From contig JAHHHH010000002.1 in assembly GCA_019359415.1 (NCBI GenBank), positions 1-64,000 on the forward strand: a stretch of 64,000 nt of DNA, given 5' to 3'. The translations under genes were made by a program, and so were the position numbers. Positions within the stretch are counted from its first letter, which is position 1. Each line of letters starts with the position of its first letter. The notes under the pieces were generated by a model, which worked only from the letters and a program-made list of their open reading frames with translations, searched no databases and was not told where the DNA came from. Origin of the DNA: Iphinoe sp. HA4291-MV1. Its GTDB lineage: Bacteria; Cyanobacteriota; Cyanobacteriia; Cyanobacteriales; Nostocaceae. Shown piece after piece: positions 6,523 through 45,372 of this stretch.

Positions 6523-7128
6523 TTAGTTGTAACTGCGCCAAATGGCGACAAGAGAACCTTGTACCTGCACCTGAATGGCGTTCACTTCTATTGGATCGTA
6601 TTTCGGGTTTGCAGGTTTAAGGGTGACGCGATCGCCAAAGCGATAAAACCGCTTCAAAGTCGTACCAATACCATCCACTCTCGCGGCGACGATAGTCCCA
6701 TTTTTCAGTTGATCTGGTTCTGGTACTGGACGTAGAAAAACCAAATCTCCTTCTACAATAGAATCTTCAATCATGCTGTCGCCACTCACCCGCAAAGCAT
6801 ATGCTTGAGGAGGTAATGACAAATGAGCTAAATCTATATTTTCTACAGCCTCAGTGAAGGGTTCTATTAATCCACCCGCCGCGATCGTTCCCAAAATTGG
6901 CACACCTTGTTTGATCGATTGCAGAATTCTAATTGTCCGTGCTTTACCTTCATTCCATTCAATGTACCCCTTATTGCGTAAATGTTCCAAGCGGCTTTGA
7001 ATTGGTGCAGGCGATTTTAAATTCATCCCTTGCATCATTTGTCGAATAGAAGGCGAATACTGGTATACTCGTATGTATTCTGCCAGCCATTCGTAAAGTT
7101 CTCTTTGAGCTTCTGTGAGACGTTCCAT
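6523..7128 (-). CDS. lexA: LexA repressor
   Basis: 201 residues from ATG 7128. The longer frame to 7152 adds eight residues with no better start; MERLTEAQ is the usual cyanobacterial N-terminus. Residues 1-70 form the winged-helix DNA-binding domain. Residues 75-201 are the S24 autoprotease domain, with the cleavage bond Ala84-Gly85 in TIAAGG, nucleophile Ser118 in SGDSM and general base Lys159 in TTLKR, so self-cleavage looks possible. In cyanobacteria LexA regulates more than DNA repair (redox, carbon and salt responses are reported). A matching operator lies just upstream at 7161-7174, so autoregulation is likely. Its neighbour downstream on the same strand is the Dnd restriction helicase, about 90 bp away, which could be read from the same transcript. 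Confidence 0.96.
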   Translation of the reverse strand: MERLTEAQRELYEWLAEYIRVYQYSPSIRQMMQGMNLKSPAPIQSRLEHLRNKGYIEWNEGKARTIRILQSIKQGVPILGTIAAGGLIEPFTEAVENIDLAHLSLPPQAYALRVSGDSMIEDSIVEGDLVFLRPVPEPDQLKNGTIVAARVDGIGTTLKRFYRFGDRVTLKPANPKYDPIEVNAIQVQVQGSLVAIWRSYN

Positions 7129-7160
7129 AAATTCGTAGGGAGGTAAATACAAATGCTCCT

Positions 7161-7174
7161 AGAACATTAGTACT
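7161..7174 (-). promoter_or_regulatory. LexA operator upstream of lexA
   Basis: On the minus strand the site reads AGTACTAATGTTCT. It fits the cyanobacterial LexA consensus RGTACNNNDGTWCB at every fixed position. It sits about 33 bp upstream of the lexA start codon, as expected for autorepression. Confidence 0.8.
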
Positions 7175-38844: not shown

Positions 38845-38933
38845 GCAGATTCTGCCAATAATAGCACATTGAGAGTAGATTTTTTCCCTAAAAGAAGTCG
38901 GTTTTAGAGAAAAAATATTCTACAATTGTAAGA

Positions 38934-39000
38934 CTCAGCGGCAAAATAGTTCCACAGTAATTGACCAGCGTCCGTCAATTTCTTGAACGACATGATGGCG
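38934..39000 (-). pseudogene. duplicated C-terminal fragment of the GVA-repeat ATPase gene
   Basis: Bases 38948-38984 are identical over 37 nt to 40605-40641, the winged-helix end of the large ATPase gene, and the flanking bases are similar. On the minus strand it encodes VQEIDGRWSITVELF. The rest of the paralogue is gone. It shows that a second ATPase gene of this type once stood here, or that a segment was copied. 38845-39169 has no other gene. Confidence 0.7.
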
Positions 39001-39169
39001 GTTTTTTCAATACTTAGTACAGCTTTGCGTAAAATGGTGGCGAGTTGAGGGTTGAAGTTTAAACGCAGAGGGACGCAGAGGTAAACGCAGAGAGAAGTTT
39101 GAGCGGAGGTTTCCTCCGATCAAAGCTTCGGTGGGAACGCGGAGAATTCGCGCTCGTATTAATGAAATG

Positions 39170-39564
39170 TTAAGGGGTTATGAGCTGTAGATTGGGAATT
39201 TCTAGGAAGTCTTTGGTATTGTGAGTGACTAACGGTAAGTTGTAGCGTAAAGCCGTTGCTGCAATCCAAGCATCTTGAGGAGAAATTGGTCGTCCCGCGC
39301 TTTGTCGATTGGCACGAACCTGTGCCCATTCTCGACAAAGGAGTTGATCGACCGGAATGATGAGGTAATTCGACAGGTATTGTTCTAGCTGGGCAAAGCG
39401 ACGATCGCCCACTGACGCAAAATTGCCCACTGAAACAGTTCAGCGATAGTCATGAATAACAATGCTAATTCTTGACCGCTCAAAACTGGTAGGTAAGGGT
39501 CAGCATAATCACTACCTTTGAGGATAAAGGAAGCAATATCAGTATCGATGAGAAGAAGACTCAT
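39170..39564 (-). pseudogene. PIN-domain (VapC-type) toxin with a one-base frameshift
   Basis: From ATG 39564 the frame gives MSLLLIDTDIASFILKG and then TIAELFQWAILRQW, the first part of a PIN toxin with its Asp and Glu. At the G run near 39407-39411 it goes out of frame. The next frame (39170 to about 39415) continues with GDRRFAQLEQYLSNYLIIPVDQ, then SPQDAWIAATALRYNLPLVTHN and TKDF, the remaining PIN acidic residues. One missing G would restore WGDRRF. It starts 10 bp after the antitoxin-like gene. It is either a dead toxin or a sequencing error. Confidence 0.8.
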
Positions 39565-39574
39565 GAGAATTTGG

Positions 39575-39868
39575 TTAAATCACCTCTTGGCGCTGCTGTC
39601 GCAGGAAGGTGAGAAAATCCTCAATGGAGTCTTCTTGAGGCCAAAAGTTAGCAGCAAAATCGTTGAGGTTATGAACGGTCGTGGGAGTCTGGGTGGCGAG
39701 TAGCTGCGTGAGCGTGGTACCTTGCCAAAACTGATTACTGAGGTTTTTAAGATCGGTTTGAGAATTTGAGGATGAATTGCTTTGAGTGAGGATTTGCAGG
39801 AGTTGTTGGCGCTCTGTGGATGAGAGGAGTTGGATGGCAGCGATCGCAGCTTCGAGTTGTGGAGTCAT
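39575..39868 (-). CDS. antitoxin-like partner of the PIN toxin
   Basis: 97 residues. A helical N-terminus (PQLEAAIAAIQLLSSTERQQLLQIL) is followed by a Gln/Ser-rich linker and a C-terminal segment rich in acidic and aromatic residues (FAANFWPQEDSIEDFLTFLRQQR), the kind that wraps a PIN toxin. It lies 10 bp upstream of the toxin gene. The family is not a well-known VapB fold, so the antitoxin role comes from position. It looks intact even though the toxin is frameshifted. Confidence 0.65.
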   Translation of the reverse strand: MTPQLEAAIAAIQLLSSTERQQLLQILTQSNSSSNSQTDLKNLSNQFWQGTTLTQLLATQTPTTVHNLNDFAANFWPQEDSIEDFLTFLRQQRQEVI

Positions 39869-39893
39869 AGTGCGGTCTTGTGGTTATCTGGTT

Positions 39894-40169
39894 CTATTCT
39901 TTTGTTAACCGTAATGTGCCTAGAAAGTATATCACGAAAACACGAAAAATCAAACCTTTGTTGATTCGCTCATAAGCATAGACAGTGATTGTTGCTACAT
40001 CATGAGTAAGCAAAATGCGTTCTTCATTGGCTGCCCACTCTAAGATAGTGGAATCATCAGTATGGATTAGACCTATATCTTGGATACGAACAATGTCCAA
40101 TCGAGGTAAACGTCTGATCAAGCCCCGCAATATCGAGCCATTGAAGTTCTCATCAGTCAATAGACGCAC
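39894..40169 (-). CDS. DUF5615 PIN-like protein, C-terminus altered
   Basis: 91 residues. It opens with MRLLTDENFNGSILRGLIRRLPRLDIVRIQD, then DDSTILEWAANEERILLTHD, with the acidic residues of the DUF5615 PIN-like fold, which is usually paired with a DUF433 antitoxin. The last 20 residues (FRVFVIYFLGTLRLTKE) are not family-like, and the protein is about 20-30 residues short, so a small deletion or frameshift at the 3' end is likely. It overlaps the DUF433 stop by 13 bp (40157-40169). Activity as an RNase is uncertain. Confidence 0.75.
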   Translation of the reverse strand: MRLLTDENFNGSILRGLIRRLPRLDIVRIQDIGLIHTDDSTILEWAANEERILLTHDVATITVYAYERINKGLIFRVFVIYFLGTLRLTKE

Positions 40170-40543
40170 TGGCTATAATTCTCCTTGGGGCTGATAGCGA
40201 TGCCTCCGGCAAGCCGCAAAGCGTCTACGCGTAAGCGCTGTCTAAGATTAGCTAAGTTATACTCCTTTTCAAATTGATTTCGTTGTTGTTGAGCTTGTTT
40301 GCGACGCTGCACTAGGTAGTTGTCGATTTCTTGGCGATGGGTGAGATAGTATGCGATCGCTGCGTATATCTCCCCTAAACAGAGAACAGGATACTGAACA
40401 GCAATTTCTTCAGGTGTAGAGCCGTTATGGTATGTGGCTAGTAAGCTATCGAGAGTAACGCGACTCTGACCAATACGAATACCTCCACCTTCGTCCCAAC
40501 GAAACGGTGGAGCGGTAACCTTAAATTCGATTTGAACGCTCAT
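40157..40543 (-). CDS. DUF433 antitoxin-like protein, C-terminus built from a repeat
   Basis: 128 residues. An N-terminal adapter strand (IEFKVTAPPFRWDEGGGIRIG) is followed by the DUF433 helical DNA-binding domain: VTLDSLLATYHNGSTPEEIAVQYP, then EIYAAIAYYLTHR. DUF433 proteins are antitoxins for DUF5615 partners. The last 22 residues (DALRLAGGIAISPKEN onward) are encoded by a dispersed repeat (40190-40240) that kept the frame. Its ATG overlaps the stop of the large ATPase gene (ATGA, 40540-40543), so it is translationally coupled to that gene, which is not usual for toxin-antitoxin pairs. Confidence 0.82.
   Translation of the reverse strand: MSVQIEFKVTAPPFRWDEGGGIRIGQSRVTLDSLLATYHNGSTPEEIAVQYPVLCLGEIYAAIAYYLTHRQEIDNYLVQRRKQAQQQRNQFEKEYNLANLRQRLRVDALRLAGGIAISPKENYSQCVY
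40190..40245. repeat. dispersed palindromic repeat inside the DUF433 gene
   Basis: Contains GATGCCTCCGGCAAGCCGC, then AAGCGTCTACGCGTAAGCGC, the same kind of unit found between genes elsewhere in the window. It lies in frame at the end of the DUF433 gene. Confidence 0.6.
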
Positions 40544-43473
40544 GGGGGAAATTCTTGGATTTGTGGTATTTCTTTCTTCAGTTTAGTGACCCAGCGACGA
40601 AAGAGTTCCACAGTAATTGACCAGCGTCCGTCAATTTCTTCAACAACATCATGACGCTTGAGAGTATCAAGTGCTTTCTCTAAAGAAGCAATTTCTATAT
40701 TTGTACTGTGAGATAACGCCTCAATACTTAATCCTTCTGGATGTGGTGCGATTGCCTTTGGCACTGCGCTTTGCGCGATCGCTTTTAGTATCGCTTGTTG
40801 TCCAGCTGCACCTCGCGCTGCCTGACCCCAAACACCATCAAAGTAGTAACGTCCCCGCTGGAAGAACTCAGGGTCATTGACAACAGCATCGACCTCCTCT
40901 ATTTTAAGGATATGATCCCGGGCGCGTTCTGTCTGAAAAACTTCGTCATTGTAACGGCGGACGAGTTGGAATCCGACTAACTGTACTAAATAAGGTTGTC
41001 CGTGGGTGAGATGGTAGATTTTATCGAGAGCTTCTGGGGTGTAGTCGAGGGGAAAGTCTTCAACAGATGGATTTGTAAGAATTTGGTGAGTCGCCCCAGC
41101 TTCCATGAAACCAACTTTGATTGGAATGACACTGGCGAAGAAAGGTTGAAAATAATCTGCTGTCATCTCTTCTAAGGTGTGCAAACCTGCTAAAGCAAAA
41201 GCGATTTTAGAGCTTTTGTGCGCTAACCCCCGGAGATATCCCATAAAATCTACAGGGATTTTTCCCACCGAAATCAGTTCCTCGATTTTCTCGAACTCGT
41301 CTAAGGCGATGATTAAACCCTGAGTTTCTAGTTCTGCTTCCACCTGTGTCAAGTATCTTCTAAATGTCGGTTGTGGAAGACTCAGCAAATCTTCATTGCT
41401 TGGAGGTGGAATTTGCATGACTTCAGAAATTGCATCAGAAATTGTCATCAGCACTTCCACAACTCCTTGGGGAGCATCTCCAACTTCTAGAAGATTGACA
41501 TAAGCGACTTGTACACTTGGTTTTATAAAACTGGCGACATTCCGCAGAATAGAAGTTTTGCCCATCCGCCTGTGTCCGTAGATAACCACAGACTGAAGTT
41601 GAGAACCCCTTACCCACAACTCCTCTAATTGTCTGATCACATCTTCCCGCCCAACAAACAATTCTGCCTCAACCGGAGGACCGACAACATAGGGATTCAC
41701 CACAGGTTTGGTGATGGAAATTTTCCCGACTTCCTTGGCTATCCCCTCAAAGGCTCTTCTCCAAGTTCGGGCAATATCTATAATTAAGTCGCGCTCTGCT
41801 TGCGGGAGAGTATCGGCATTATCTAGAATTTCTGTGAGTTCCCCGAAGGCGCGGTTGAGAGCTAAGGAGCGTTGATAAGTAGACCGACTGCGCTGTATAA
41901 TCGCGGCATTCTCAACGACAGAACGTAGAGATGTGAGAGTTTGCCAGGTTACTGGACGCAGTAAGGGTTCTTGTGGAAAGGAAGGAATTTCAACTGTAGC
42001 GATCGCGTTTGGTTCTTTTGCTTTGTTAAAGGCTGCTAGAGTTTGAGCGAGGGTGAACATTTCTTCACCATAGGGAAGAGAACGCACTTTTGTAAAAGCC
42101 TCCTCAGCTTTCGCTGGTTCTTTTTCATGAAGATACCAGAAACCAGCCGCAGTAGCACGGGCGGGAGTGTCTAAGCGAGTATCTGTGAAAAAACGAGCTT
42201 GGAGTTGTTCTTTCCAACGACGAGGAAAGAAAAAGAACAACGGGAAAGAAAAGAAATCTTTGACAAACTTTGACTTGAGCGTTTCATTGAGAGAAGCTGA
42301 GACAAAACGCACGAGTTGCCAATCAAAAGGTTTTTCAGCAACCTGAACGACACGAAAGACGACTTGCTCTGAAGGGATTTCCGCCAGCACCAAATTGACA
42401 GCTTGAATCACGGGGATGAATTGAAGAGTGTAAGCTAGCAATTGGTTCGCATTATGCAAACCATTCTCCCAGTCTTGACGCAGCCAATTTTTCAACCGAG
42501 AAGACAGAGAGTAAAGAGGAAATGGCGTGACATGGGAGATTTGCCATTGTTTATTGTGGGGAAACCACATGACAAGGGGTAAACTCAAAAGCCAATTTTC
42601 CAGACGGAGTATCGCCACGCCAAACGCCACGCCAAACGCCACGCCATACGCCACGTTGCCCACCACGCCGCTCCCCACGCCGTGCGCCAAGCCAAACGCC
42701 ACGCCGCTCGTCACGCCAAGCACCACGCCAAACGCCACGCCAAACGCCACGCCGCTCGTCACGCCATACACCACGCCGCTCGTCACGCCGCTCGTCACGC
42801 CATACACCGCGCCATACGCCCCGCTGCTCACCACGCCATACACCGCGCCATACGCCACGCCAACCGCCACGCCGCGCGCCACGCCTAATGCCAAGATGCC
42901 GCTTGCCACGCCAAACACCACGCCGTGCGCCAAGCCAAACGTCACGCTGCTCGTCACGCTGCTCGCCACGCCAAACGCCACGCCGCGCGCTACGCCGCGC
43001 GCTACGCCGCGCGCTACGCCGCGCGCTACGCCATACGCCACGCCATACGCCACGCCATACGCCACGCCTAACCAAATAAAAATAATAGGAACAACATCTA
43101 TTTGCTGAAGAAGCCAAGCCAACGTCATAGGAACATCTATTTGCTGAAGAAGCCAAGCCAACGTCATAGGAACATCTATTTGCTGAAGAAGCCAAGCCAA
43201 CGTCAGTGGTGTCACAACTGTTAACACCAATCCTTGGCAAAGCAAATTTCGCTGAATGGAATTTTGTTGCAGCAACTCCCATCCCTTGCGCCAATTCATT
43301 TCCCATAAAGGAATATATCCACCCCCAAAGTTATCCACATACCATCGCAAAGCTTGGGGAAAGTAAAACACCCAGTACAACAGGCGCAGGTAATCCAGCG
43401 GGTTCCACAGGGAGAGGGGGCGCTTGAGTTTGGGCGCTAAATCTAGGCGGGGTACGGGTGGGTGTTGGTTCAT
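40540..43473 (-). CDS. 977-residue membrane-repeat AAA/STAND-like ATPase
   Basis: Start ATG 43473, because it overlaps the upstream stop (ATGA, 43470-43473). Residues 1-90 hold Trp/Tyr-rich helices. At about 90-126 a 13-residue unit (TLAWLLQQIDVPM) is repeated three times. From about 135 to 287 the chain is nearly all GVAx tetrapeptides (GVAY, GVAR, GVTS, GVAF), a glycine-zipper-like hydrophobic array likely to sit in the membrane. The ATPase domain has Walker A YGHRRMGKTS at about 628-637 and Walker B LIIALDEFEKI near 715. A winged helix lies at about 905-960. The next gene, DUF433, overlaps its stop. It may be a membrane-anchored sensor or effector; function is inferred only. Confidence 0.8.
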   Translation of the reverse strand: MNQHPPVPRLDLAPKLKRPLSLWNPLDYLRLLYWVFYFPQALRWYVDNFGGGYIPLWEMNWRKGWELLQQNSIQRNLLCQGLVLTVVTPLTLAWLLQQIDVPMTLAWLLQQIDVPMTLAWLLQQIDVVPIIFIWLGVAYGVAYGVAYGVARGVARGVARGVARGVAFGVASSVTSSVTFGLAHGVVFGVASGILALGVARGVAVGVAYGAVYGVVSSGAYGAVYGVTSGVTSGVVYGVTSGVAFGVAFGVVLGVTSGVAFGLAHGVGSGVVGNVAYGVAFGVAFGVAILRLENWLLSLPLVMWFPHNKQWQISHVTPFPLYSLSSRLKNWLRQDWENGLHNANQLLAYTLQFIPVIQAVNLVLAEIPSEQVVFRVVQVAEKPFDWQLVRFVSASLNETLKSKFVKDFFSFPLFFFFPRRWKEQLQARFFTDTRLDTPARATAAGFWYLHEKEPAKAEEAFTKVRSLPYGEEMFTLAQTLAAFNKAKEPNAIATVEIPSFPQEPLLRPVTWQTLTSLRSVVENAAIIQRSRSTYQRSLALNRAFGELTEILDNADTLPQAERDLIIDIARTWRRAFEGIAKEVGKISITKPVVNPYVVGPPVEAELFVGREDVIRQLEELWVRGSQLQSVVIYGHRRMGKTSILRNVASFIKPSVQVAYVNLLEVGDAPQGVVEVLMTISDAISEVMQIPPPSNEDLLSLPQPTFRRYLTQVEAELETQGLIIALDEFEKIEELISVGKIPVDFMGYLRGLAHKSSKIAFALAGLHTLEEMTADYFQPFFASVIPIKVGFMEAGATHQILTNPSVEDFPLDYTPEALDKIYHLTHGQPYLVQLVGFQLVRRYNDEVFQTERARDHILKIEEVDAVVNDPEFFQRGRYYFDGVWGQAARGAAGQQAILKAIAQSAVPKAIAPHPEGLSIEALSHSTNIEIASLEKALDTLKRHDVVEEIDGRWSITVELFRRWVTKLKKEIPQIQEFPP
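42613..43068 (-). repeat. 12-bp tandem array encoding GVAx tetrapeptides
   Basis: About 38 degenerate copies of a 12-bp unit such as ACGCCATACGCC (plus strand) lie inside the large ATPase gene. Frame is kept in every copy, and substitutions fall mainly in the fourth residue or swap Ala, Thr, Val and Ser, as for coding selection. Confidence 0.85.
43094..43206 (-). repeat. 39-bp in-frame triplication
   Basis: Three nearly exact copies starting at 43094, 43133 and 43172 encode TLAWLLQQIDVPM three times. The near identity means recent expansion. Confidence 0.9.
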
Positions 43474-44228
43474 TCCCCACCTCCCGTATACCGCGCATAA
43501 CTTCGATAGCATAGCTGCATAAGTTTCCGAGGATGTCCGCCGCTTTCCTCCACCGATCGCACAATTTCCTCTTCCAAAAAACTCACAGAAGTTCTCGCCA
43601 AACGCCTAGCAATAAAATCACGCATGGTAGTTTCATTCCAAGGCTGAATGTGTTCCTCCTGGCAAATACCTGCCAACGGTGATGTCTTACCTTCATCATG
43701 ACTATCATTAAACAAGTCGTTGAGTGGTTCACTCGCAGCTAAAATCAACTTCAATGGCGCATCACTTCCCTCAGCTAAGCCGCGCAACTTATCCCGTACT
43801 CCACGAGTAAACCCTTGCCAAGTCAGCTTCCCCACATTGTCCAAAGCCAGTAGTATCTTATTTTTATGTGCTTTCAAATTCCGGGTTAACAGATACCCTG
43901 TACATTCTTTGATACCAACCTCGTGACACAACGCGCTGTAGAAGTCTTCTTCATTATCTATATAATTCAAGTCTAGAAAAACTGACTGACGCGGTGAATA
44001 TAGACGACTTCCCGCCTGTTGGCAAATCGCCCATAGTAAAGAAGACTTGCCAATTCCTTCTTCTCCTATCAAAGCAACACTGCTTCCGCTGTTAAGCACT
44101 TCAAACACCCGCCCAATTTCTCGCTCTCGGTTAAAAAACAACTGTAAATTTTCTATTCTGCCATGTTGGGGAATGAAGGGGTTGGGAATTGCCTTTTCTG
44201 CTCTCGGTTTTGGAACAAGAACTAAGTC
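43470..44228 (-). CDS. nSTAND-like ATPase half, joined to CHAT by frameshift
   Basis: The frame is open from beyond the A9 tract (GAC at 44226-44228) down to TGA at 43470. A linker reads DLVLVPKPRAEKAIPNP, then the ATPase FFNREREIGRVFEVLNSGSS with Walker A IGEEGIGKSS and Walker B ILLALDNVGKL, and a C-terminal lid (EEEIVRSVEESGGHP). There is no in-frame ATG before Walker A, so independent initiation is unlikely. In the -1 frame after the CHAT part the fused product is about 443 residues: CHAT 1-191, linker 192-220, ATPase 221-443. It ends overlapping the ATG of the large ATPase gene. Confidence 0.8.
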   Translation of the reverse strand, partial: DLVLVPKPRAEKAIPNPFIPQHGRIENLQLFFNREREIGRVFEVLNSGSSVALIGEEGIGKSSLLWAICQQAGSRLYSPRQSVFLDLNYIDNEEDFYSALCHEVGIKECTGYLLTRNLKAHKNKILLALDNVGKLTWQGFTRGVRDKLRGLAEGSDAPLKLILAASEPLNDLFNDSHDEGKTSPLAGICQEEHIQPWNETTMRDFIARRLARTSVSFLEEEIVRSVEESGGHPRKLMQLCYRSYARYTGGGE

Positions 44229-44800
44229 TTTTTTTTTACATAAATAATTGGTTTAAGATGCTCTGGAATACCTTGTAATCGAATCTCTACACAGCCAAAC
44301 TTATAAGCATCCTCAATGGAACGATTTGCAGCTAATGCTTTGTAAAAACCAACAGCAAAGGAAATCGCCGCTTGATCACCAATTGCGTCATTCATCCCAA
44401 TCACAAACGGGATATGTTCGGTGATCGCCTTTGCCTGAATTTCAGAGTAGCAAGCATTTAGCACCACACAATTTACGTGCTGTGCAAACAGCTCAAACAT
44501 TGCTGCTAAAGCATCAGGCTGCACAGGCTGAAATTTGCCCACTTCATTCTCAAAACAAAGCTCTCCTTGACTTGTACCATGTCCAGAAAAATGTATAATG
44601 TTTGGCTCAACATCAAATATAGCTTGGGTAATATCCCCAACACGAACTGACTCTCGCTGTTCCAACTGATATTTTTCTGGCACTTTGGCTATTCGCAATC
44701 TTTCTTTAATATCTCGTAACTCTTGCCCTAAACGTAACCGAGAATCATCACTCGGATCGGCTGCTAAAAACAAGATTTTTACAGAAATAGCACCGCTCAT
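44222..44800 (-). CDS. CHAT-domain (caspase-like) protease
   Basis: 192 residues in the zero frame. A CHAT domain with the catalytic dyad His74 in IIHFSGHG and Cys117 in VVLNACYSE; ILFLAADPSDDSRLRLGQEL is the usual first strand and helix. It has no TPR domain of its own. The zero frame stops soon after a run of nine A (44229-44237), while the -1 frame continues into an ATPase, so both a short and a fused product are possible. CHAT proteases serve in bacterial defence and cell death, often next to STAND ATPases; that is family knowledge. Confidence 0.88.
   Translation of the reverse strand: MSGAISVKILFLAADPSDDSRLRLGQELRDIKERLRIAKVPEKYQLEQRESVRVGDITQAIFDVEPNIIHFSGHGTSQGELCFENEVGKFQPVQPDALAAMFELFAQHVNCVVLNACYSEIQAKAITEHIPFVIGMNDAIGDQAAISFAVGFYKALAANRSIEDAYKFGCVEIRLQGIPEHLKPIIYVKKKT
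44228..44234 (-). promoter_or_regulatory. A_AAA_AAG slippery heptamer, candidate -1 frameshift site
   Basis: In the zero frame of the CHAT gene the codons read AAA AAG with a preceding A, the same heptamer and phase as the dnaX -1 programmed frameshift site. The -1 shift joins exactly the CHAT and ATPase frames. No strong downstream hairpin or upstream Shine-Dalgarno-like booster is obvious. RNA polymerase slippage on A9, or an assembly error, are alternatives. Confidence 0.65.
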
Positions 44801-44916: not shown

Positions 44917-45372
44917 AATACGGTTCGGATGAGCTCTTAAAGCTCTTGATACCTGTGGACGAGTGTTTGATACCTGTGGACGAGTGTTTGATACCTGTGG
45001 ACGAGTGTTTGATACCTGTGGACGAGTGTTTGATATCTGTGGACGAGTGTTTGATATCTGTGGACGAGTGTTTGATATCTGTGGACGAGTGTTTGATATC
45101 TGTGGACGAGTGTTTGATATCTGTGGATGAGTGTTTAATACCTGTGGATGAGTGTTTGATACTCGCGGACGAGTGTTTAATACCTGTGGATGAGTGTTTG
45201 ATACCTGTGAACGAGTGTTTGATACCTGTGAACGAGTGTTTGATACTCATCCACTCGCAATATGGTTCAGATAACCCCGCAGGCGATTGCGCTCCCGACG
45301 CAGTTTGCACGCTCTGCTTTGAATGGTGCTCACGCGGCGAGGGTGACAGCTCACCGTTAACCGAATCGTATT
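44917..45372 (-). repeat. 21-bp palindromic tandem array with hairpin head (copy 2)
   Basis: Reverse orientation of the element at 27061. Head inverted repeats are at 45356-45372 (GTTAACCGAATCGTATT) and 45259-45274 (AATATGGTTCAGATAA). About 14 units of 21 bp (44949-45246, AAACACTCGTCCACAGGTATC on the minus strand) follow. A second AATACGGTTCGGAT sits at 44917-44930, closing the array. Copy 1 lacks this last piece. Long frames here are artefacts of the unit length. Confidence 0.8.

Follow-up and report, generated by a model that had tools for sequence, protein, structure and literature searches.

Do the closely packed genes on the minus strand at positions 39894-44800 of this locus act as one unit, and what does the run of adenines between the first two frames do? 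The window, i.e. the whole 64-kb stretch of DNA that was analysed, comes from a genome of 140 contigs (7.36 Mb) whose nearest named relatives, judged by the GVA-repeat ATPase, are Scytonema and Brasilonema. The original prediction joined a CHAT/ATPase gene, a GVA-repeat membrane ATPase and genes for DUF433 and DUF5615 proteins into a single defence or cell-death unit. Its gene positions hold, and all the sequence features on which it relied are present in the DNA, read on the minus strand: a slippery site, which is a run of nine A (A9, 44229-44237), two ATGA overlaps (43470-43473 and 40540-40543) and a 13-bp overlap (40157-40169). The unit itself was nevertheless wrongly drawn, since the first two genes belong to it and the DUF433 and DUF5615 genes do not.

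By Pfam, the neighbours in the window are PhoD-like, ABC-transporter and Uma2 genes; no MoxR or vWA gene was found among the window neighbours scanned in this way, related loci having been compared with window proteins only. Scans for promoters and terminators gave 11 (against 8.0 in shuffled sequences) and 8 (against 7.0) respectively, i.e. values near chance. A 21-bp tandem repeat of 14 copies (window 44946-45246) lies immediately 5' of the CHAT gene.

A conserved pair of genes with an interchangeable N-terminal domain

The first frame (44222-44800, minus strand, 192 aa) ends with a TAG right after the A run. It matches the Pfam family PF12770 with 34.6 bits (cut-off 24), the PADLOC chat profile with 67.7 bits, PADLOC matches being domain-level only, and PDB 8tl0 with an E value of 2.8e-15. 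The His and Cys motifs (H[FL]xGHG and LNAC) are intact in 21 of the 21 CHAT-STAND loci compared. Profile and motifs together identify the predicted product as a CHAT (caspase-like) protease, relatives of which occur at E<=1e-40 in 161 of 218 genomes of the family.

The STAND-type NTPase frame (43470-44237, minus strand) has no stop between the A run and its terminal TGA at 43470. Pfam reports AAA_22 (32.9 bits, cut-off 27) and nSTAND1 (30.1 bits, cut-off 27.1), and residues G245, G250, K251 and D320 (numbering of the reference row) are invariant in a 19-row alignment. With a STAND/AAA profile, a Walker A motif and an acidic Walker B motif, the window frame is predicted to encode an nSTAND1-like protein. 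STAND NTPases typically end in a sensor made of repeats such as TPR or WD40; the window frame stops directly behind the NTPase region, and Pfam detected no repeat family at E<=0.1. Within the order, 89 of 388 genomes have a match to the STAND part at E<=1e-20, and a PDB search with the STAND-type profile returned seven sequences, all weak and generic P-loop matches.

An ATGA stop/start overlap (43470-43473) leads from the STAND frame to the GVA-repeat ATPase (40540-43473, minus strand, 977 aa, probably membrane-bound); the span in the list of open reading frames is 40540-43512, and the ATG at 43473 is common to the homologues, whose identity to the window protein is 49-82% in a 43-row alignment. 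The protein matches ATPase_2 (PF01637, 36.3 bits, cut-off 33.2) and AAA_16 (PF13191, 34.1 bits, cut-off 32.6), and carries a Walker A motif GHRRMGKTS and a Walker B motif LDEFE. Ahead of the ATPase domain, a 12-bp repeat found by TRF (42613-43068, minus strand) codes for the G-V-A-x segment, which is preceded by a perfect 39-bp tandem repeat of 2.9 copies (43093-43205, minus strand; TRF). Most of 46 complete GVA-ATPase proteins show a glycine period of four in this segment. Six of them (L283, L257, L290, L291, L263 and L266) have no glycine period and little glycine, and the five whose sequence was inspected resemble ordinary hydrophobic stretches. The GVA repeat is thus probably a membrane anchor, with a putative membrane insertion, and not a special motif. 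At E<=0.001 the C-terminal part has matches in 62 of 100 relatives, distant ATPases among them, and it gave no match in the plasmid and phage collections; the GVA-ATPase profile gave no match in PDB. At four loci (L074, L075, L076 and L078) the GVA-ATPase gene is reduced to 3'-end remnants. Those of L074 and L078 adjoin a relative of the PhoD-like gene of the window, which suggests that the unit was lost there.

The gene order was compared in other cyanobacterial genomes, using the best 80 of 206 GVA-ATPase relatives from named genomes. Sixteen of these loci had too little upstream DNA and were left out; in 60 of the 64 testable ones a STAND gene precedes the GVA ATPase on the same strand at a distance of at most 5 kb. 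The same linkage is seen in a second genome set, whose assemblies partly overlap those of the 80 loci. Thus the CHAT/ATPase and the GVA ATPase form one conserved unit, as had been proposed. STAND is absent upstream in four loci (L234, L258, L275 and L288), and in L288 its place before the GVA ATPase is taken by a Trypco1 gene (6831-7166, 59.4 bits), a family named, in passages of PMC7159879, after trypsin conflict systems. One further locus, L198, has a single frame of 798 codons that joins STAND to the soluble part of the GVA ATPase. We rejected it as evidence of a fusion: the hydrophobic segment and part of STAND are missing, and it looks like a deletion product.

The core therefore consists of one gene for a STAND-type NTPase, whose N-terminal domain is interchangeable, followed by one for a second ATPase with a hydrophobic segment that is mostly a GVA repeat. 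At the N-terminus, 12 of the 60 loci have CHAT, 4 a trypsin-like domain, 1 TIR and 43 an unassigned domain of ~100-150 aa; Pfam covered one member of several of these types rather than all 60 loci, and the single TIR match (27.0 bits) is slightly below the 28-bit cut-off. Because CHAT, trypsin-like and TIR domains replace one another in one slot, we infer a role in conflict or cell death. To this extent the proposed defence role fits the CHAT/ATPase and the GVA ATPase, and it does not extend to the DUF pair. Judged by this domain company, the protease/NTPase and GVA-ATPase pair looks like a cell-suicide module that would serve defence.

The DUF433/DUF5615 insert

Collinearity of the window with related loci breaks off at ~40588 and starts again at ~39004. 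Between these points lies an insert of ~1.6 kb (39005-40587, minus strand, delimited by the breaks in homology) that holds the DUF433 gene, the DUF5615 gene, a gene of 97 aa and PIN fragments. It is flanked by a duplication of ~70 bp of the GVA-ATPase gene end, the degenerate second copy of which (38920 to 39003 or 39004, minus strand), recognised by sequence comparison, adjoins the PhoD-like gene. Among relatives of the insert, homology begins at 40585 in 7 of 10.

Both DUF genes are altered. DUF433 (40157-40543, minus strand) matches PF04255 with 36.2 bits (cut-off 23.6); its relatives match over residues ~1-105 and then diverge, i.e. the C-terminus is altered in the window. DUF5615 (39894-40169, minus strand, GTG start) scores 41 bits (cut-off 23.8) but covers only 55 of 110 profile positions; it is truncated, matching ending at residue 73 while L299 and L300 run ~43 residues further. 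A PIN-domain gene (window 39170-39564) is broken into two overlapping frames.

At E<=1e-25, DUF433 is matched in 11 of 218 family genomes, the window's own included, and in none of seven other genomes of its genus; the closest relatives, with 88-95% identity, are in seven genomes of one other genus. Neither DUF433 nor DUF5615 was found near the core in any of 74 loci of named genomes (tblastn E<=1e-3, within 3 kb, same strand); DUF433 matches on the opposite strand occur in L248 and L250 and, in the second genome set, in L056, L173 and L182. The gene-order comparison thus supports the linkage of the CHAT-ATPase with the GVA ATPase and fails to support that of the DUF pair, which we reject as functional partners of the core given the insert, the absence of linkage and the truncated DUF5615. 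From these comparisons DUF433, DUF5615 and the broken PIN gene can be taken as a decayed later insertion, and we infer that it arrived horizontally. An ATGA-coupled DUF433 within a late insert is a case in which overlapping genes mislead.

The poly-A junction

The A9 at 44229-44237, at the boundary of the CHAT and STAND frames, is the sole A or T run of at least nine within the 64-kb window. The ATPase frame is -1 relative to that of CHAT and stays open through the tract. We compared 21 CHAT-STAND loci, after removing duplicates of genomes already represented as well as L218/L043, in which the contig starts near STAND. The frame changes across an A8 or A9 run in 8 of the 21: six with A9 (the window, L045, L046, L059, L143 and L144) and two with A8 (L140 and L142). 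The 13 others are in one frame, and among these L224 has a stop inside STAND. A8 and A9 loci require opposite frame corrections. In all six A9 loci the CHAT frame reads GTA AAA AAA AAG, with a stop one codon later.

The STAND frame has no stops in 8 of 8 split loci. For the seven pairs of split loci its dN/dS is 0.224, 0.245, 0.440, 0.130, 0.212, 0.234 and 0.166, the first two of these values coming from the window paired with two other A9 genomes; for in-frame pairs it is 0.233 (L042/L139), 0.141 (L070/L147) and 0.237 (L224/L279). The downstream STAND frame of the split loci is under purifying selection. These loci form three clades, and the CHAT and STAND trees need four changes each, three of them forced by well-supported branches. 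An internal re-start of the NTPase is disfavoured: L140 and L142 have no ATG, GTG or TTG between the tract and Walker A, and in five of the other six split loci (window included) the first start codon follows the NPF motif, which is invariant in the 19 rows; the exception is L046, with a GTG ahead of NPF.

How common are such tracts? The 80 loci contain 114 runs of A>=8. At four of these one long frame gives way to another, and all four are CHAT ends; these control loci were picked for the GVA ATPase, so that CHAT-STAND ends are over-represented. On the coding strand of stop-to-stop frames of at least 200 codons (862 kb), there are 7 runs of A>=9 and 44 of A>=8, CHAT runs included. A degenerate pattern of a CHAT end plus poly-A gave 17 matches in 16 of 218 genomes and one match in the reversed control. 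Of the 17, 14 are CHAT ends, in 13 genomes, and three (L314-L316) are not; the pattern was built from known CHAT ends, and its count measures specificity, not discovery.

The tract is also found in a second family. In L154, L156, L157 and L158, CHAT ends with A10, A12, A10 and A10 respectively, at the same place as the CHAT-STAND tract, continue out of frame into 520-529 open codons with a TRADD-like_N domain. The split, intact CHAT-TRADD genes are thus four, from four genera. The dN/dS of the TRADD part is 0.088-0.155 in six pairs, ratios that are rough at dS of 1.24-1.85, i.e. above 1. CHAT and TRADD are in frame in L307 and L308 (A6) and in L309 and L152 (A8), and L311 has A9 with a degenerate CHAT. 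L154 additionally matches sigma-70 region 4.

The poly-A run between protease and switch seems to be kept by selection. A recurrent homopolymer with a selected downstream frame, as found at this junction, marks a putative programmed slippage gene.

Proposed mechanism, rival readings and known systems

The best reading is a programmed slippage that would give both free CHAT and CHAT-NTPase. RNA polymerase would slip on the A run; the unslipped mRNA would yield a free CHAT protease, of 192 aa in the window, and the slipped mRNA a CHAT-STAND fusion of ~443 aa. The second (GVA) ATPase would sense membrane or infection stress and signal to the STAND NTPase. The latter would then activate the effector joined to it, the CHAT protease here and, in other species, a TIR or trypsin-like domain, and the infected cell would be killed or arrested, DUF433 and DUF5615 playing no role. 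We hold this whole model, a STAND/GVA-ATPase cell-death module with polymerase slippage at the CHAT A run, to be reasonably likely. We give an even chance to the idea that cyanobacteria obtain free and switch-bound CHAT from one gene by slippage on a poly-A hinge, that they do so at least in two immune-like protein types, STAND NTPases and TRADD-N proteins, and that homopolymer length sets the dose of loose effector. Runs of nine A or nine T are known slippage sites according to passages of PMC5009743. The module would function without slippage, because most CHAT-STAND loci (13/21) are in one frame. Against slippage, CHAT relatives are mostly without the tract (161 of 218 genomes have such relatives, 13 the poly-A CHAT end), the linker that holds the tract is rich in Lys, which favours the emergence of A runs, and the split loci stem from few lineages.

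Replication slippage could instead alter the A run between cells or strains, with the fusion on at A7 and off at A8 or A9. Close relatives do differ in this way: L042 and L139 have A7 against A9 in the window, L045 and L046, and L140 and L142 have A8 against A9 in L059. But the out-of-frame states come from separate genomes, in which purifying selection acts on the frame after the tract, and the four intact split CHAT-TRADD genes are far diverged (dS >1) across their four genera, and we find such phase variation unlikely. A programmed -1 ribosomal frameshift would use the A AAA AAG in the tract, which we take to be a dnaX-type site, and the sequence common to the six A9 loci, with its stop one codon on, agrees with it. 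The A8 loci, however, need the opposite correction, so that RNA-polymerase slippage accounts for both tracts and a single ribosomal -1 site cannot; moreover the 80 nt past the tract fold no better than shuffled sequences in five of five loci tested (z -0.79 to 1.26), and no Shine-Dalgarno-like stretch is seen by eye ahead of the tract in the window. As sole mechanism a ribosomal -1 shift is therefore disfavoured, and we judge frameshifting at this site quite improbable. The split genes could also be decayed, as frameshifted pseudogenes or as errors of assembly in A runs, in line with the broken DUF5615 and PIN genes nearby, the stop inside STAND of the in-frame L224 and the degenerate CHAT of L311. 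An A9 common to separate genomes, the intact and selected STAND frame in every split locus and the CHAT motifs intact in all 21 loci make decay the remotest of these readings.

The role of the pair can be questioned independently of the tract. It might govern development or stress responses and not phage defence, the other N-terminal domains being adaptors or DNA-binding; this is compatible with slippage, so that its probability overlaps with the others, and we rate it as possible but rather doubtful. It agrees with the 43 of 60 N-terminal domains that have no assigned function, one of which recurs in other, mostly larger proteins with 3-17 matches per genome in 10 of 10 genomes, and with the plasmid and phage collections having given no match. 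The sharing of one slot by CHAT, trypsin-like and TIR domains is on the other hand typical of conflict systems, as passages of PMC7159879 and PMC8195603 describe them.

Among open-licence papers we found no description of the gene pair or of the poly-A CHAT junction. The window CHAT aligns at HFxGHG and VLNAC with the CHAT domain of PDB 8tl0, which is presumably the SAVED-CHAT protease (PADLOC SAVED_CHAT); the window CHAT differs in being joined to a STAND NTPase, and no SAVED domain was found there. The title of the 8tl0 entry reads CHAT domain-containing protein.

If the model is true, bacterial innate immunity gains a module built on two NTPases, with protease and TIR domains as exchangeable effectors, and recoding serves there to set how much of the death protease is free relative to how much is restrained. 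The nearest likeness is to the NTPase-centred conflict systems of multicellular bacteria (iSTAND, TRADD-N, EACC1 and nSTAND1). In the passages of PMC7159879 and PMC8195603 that treat them, a constant NTPase carries a variable N-terminal caspase, trypsin, TIR or adaptor, such systems are frequent in cyanobacteria, and they include TRADD-N proteins with an N-terminal caspase. The present locus differs from what is described there by its second constant gene, the GVA-repeat ATPase, and by a junction that can be an out-of-frame poly-A. With the transcriptional slippage genes (dnaX, Shigella and insect endosymbionts), as passages of PMC5009743 and PMC3711429 present them, it shares a tract of about nine A across which the frame changes and beyond which the new frame is intact. 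It differs from these in that slippage is here deduced from sequence, and in that the tract lies at the junction of effector and switch, in two types of CHAT fusion.
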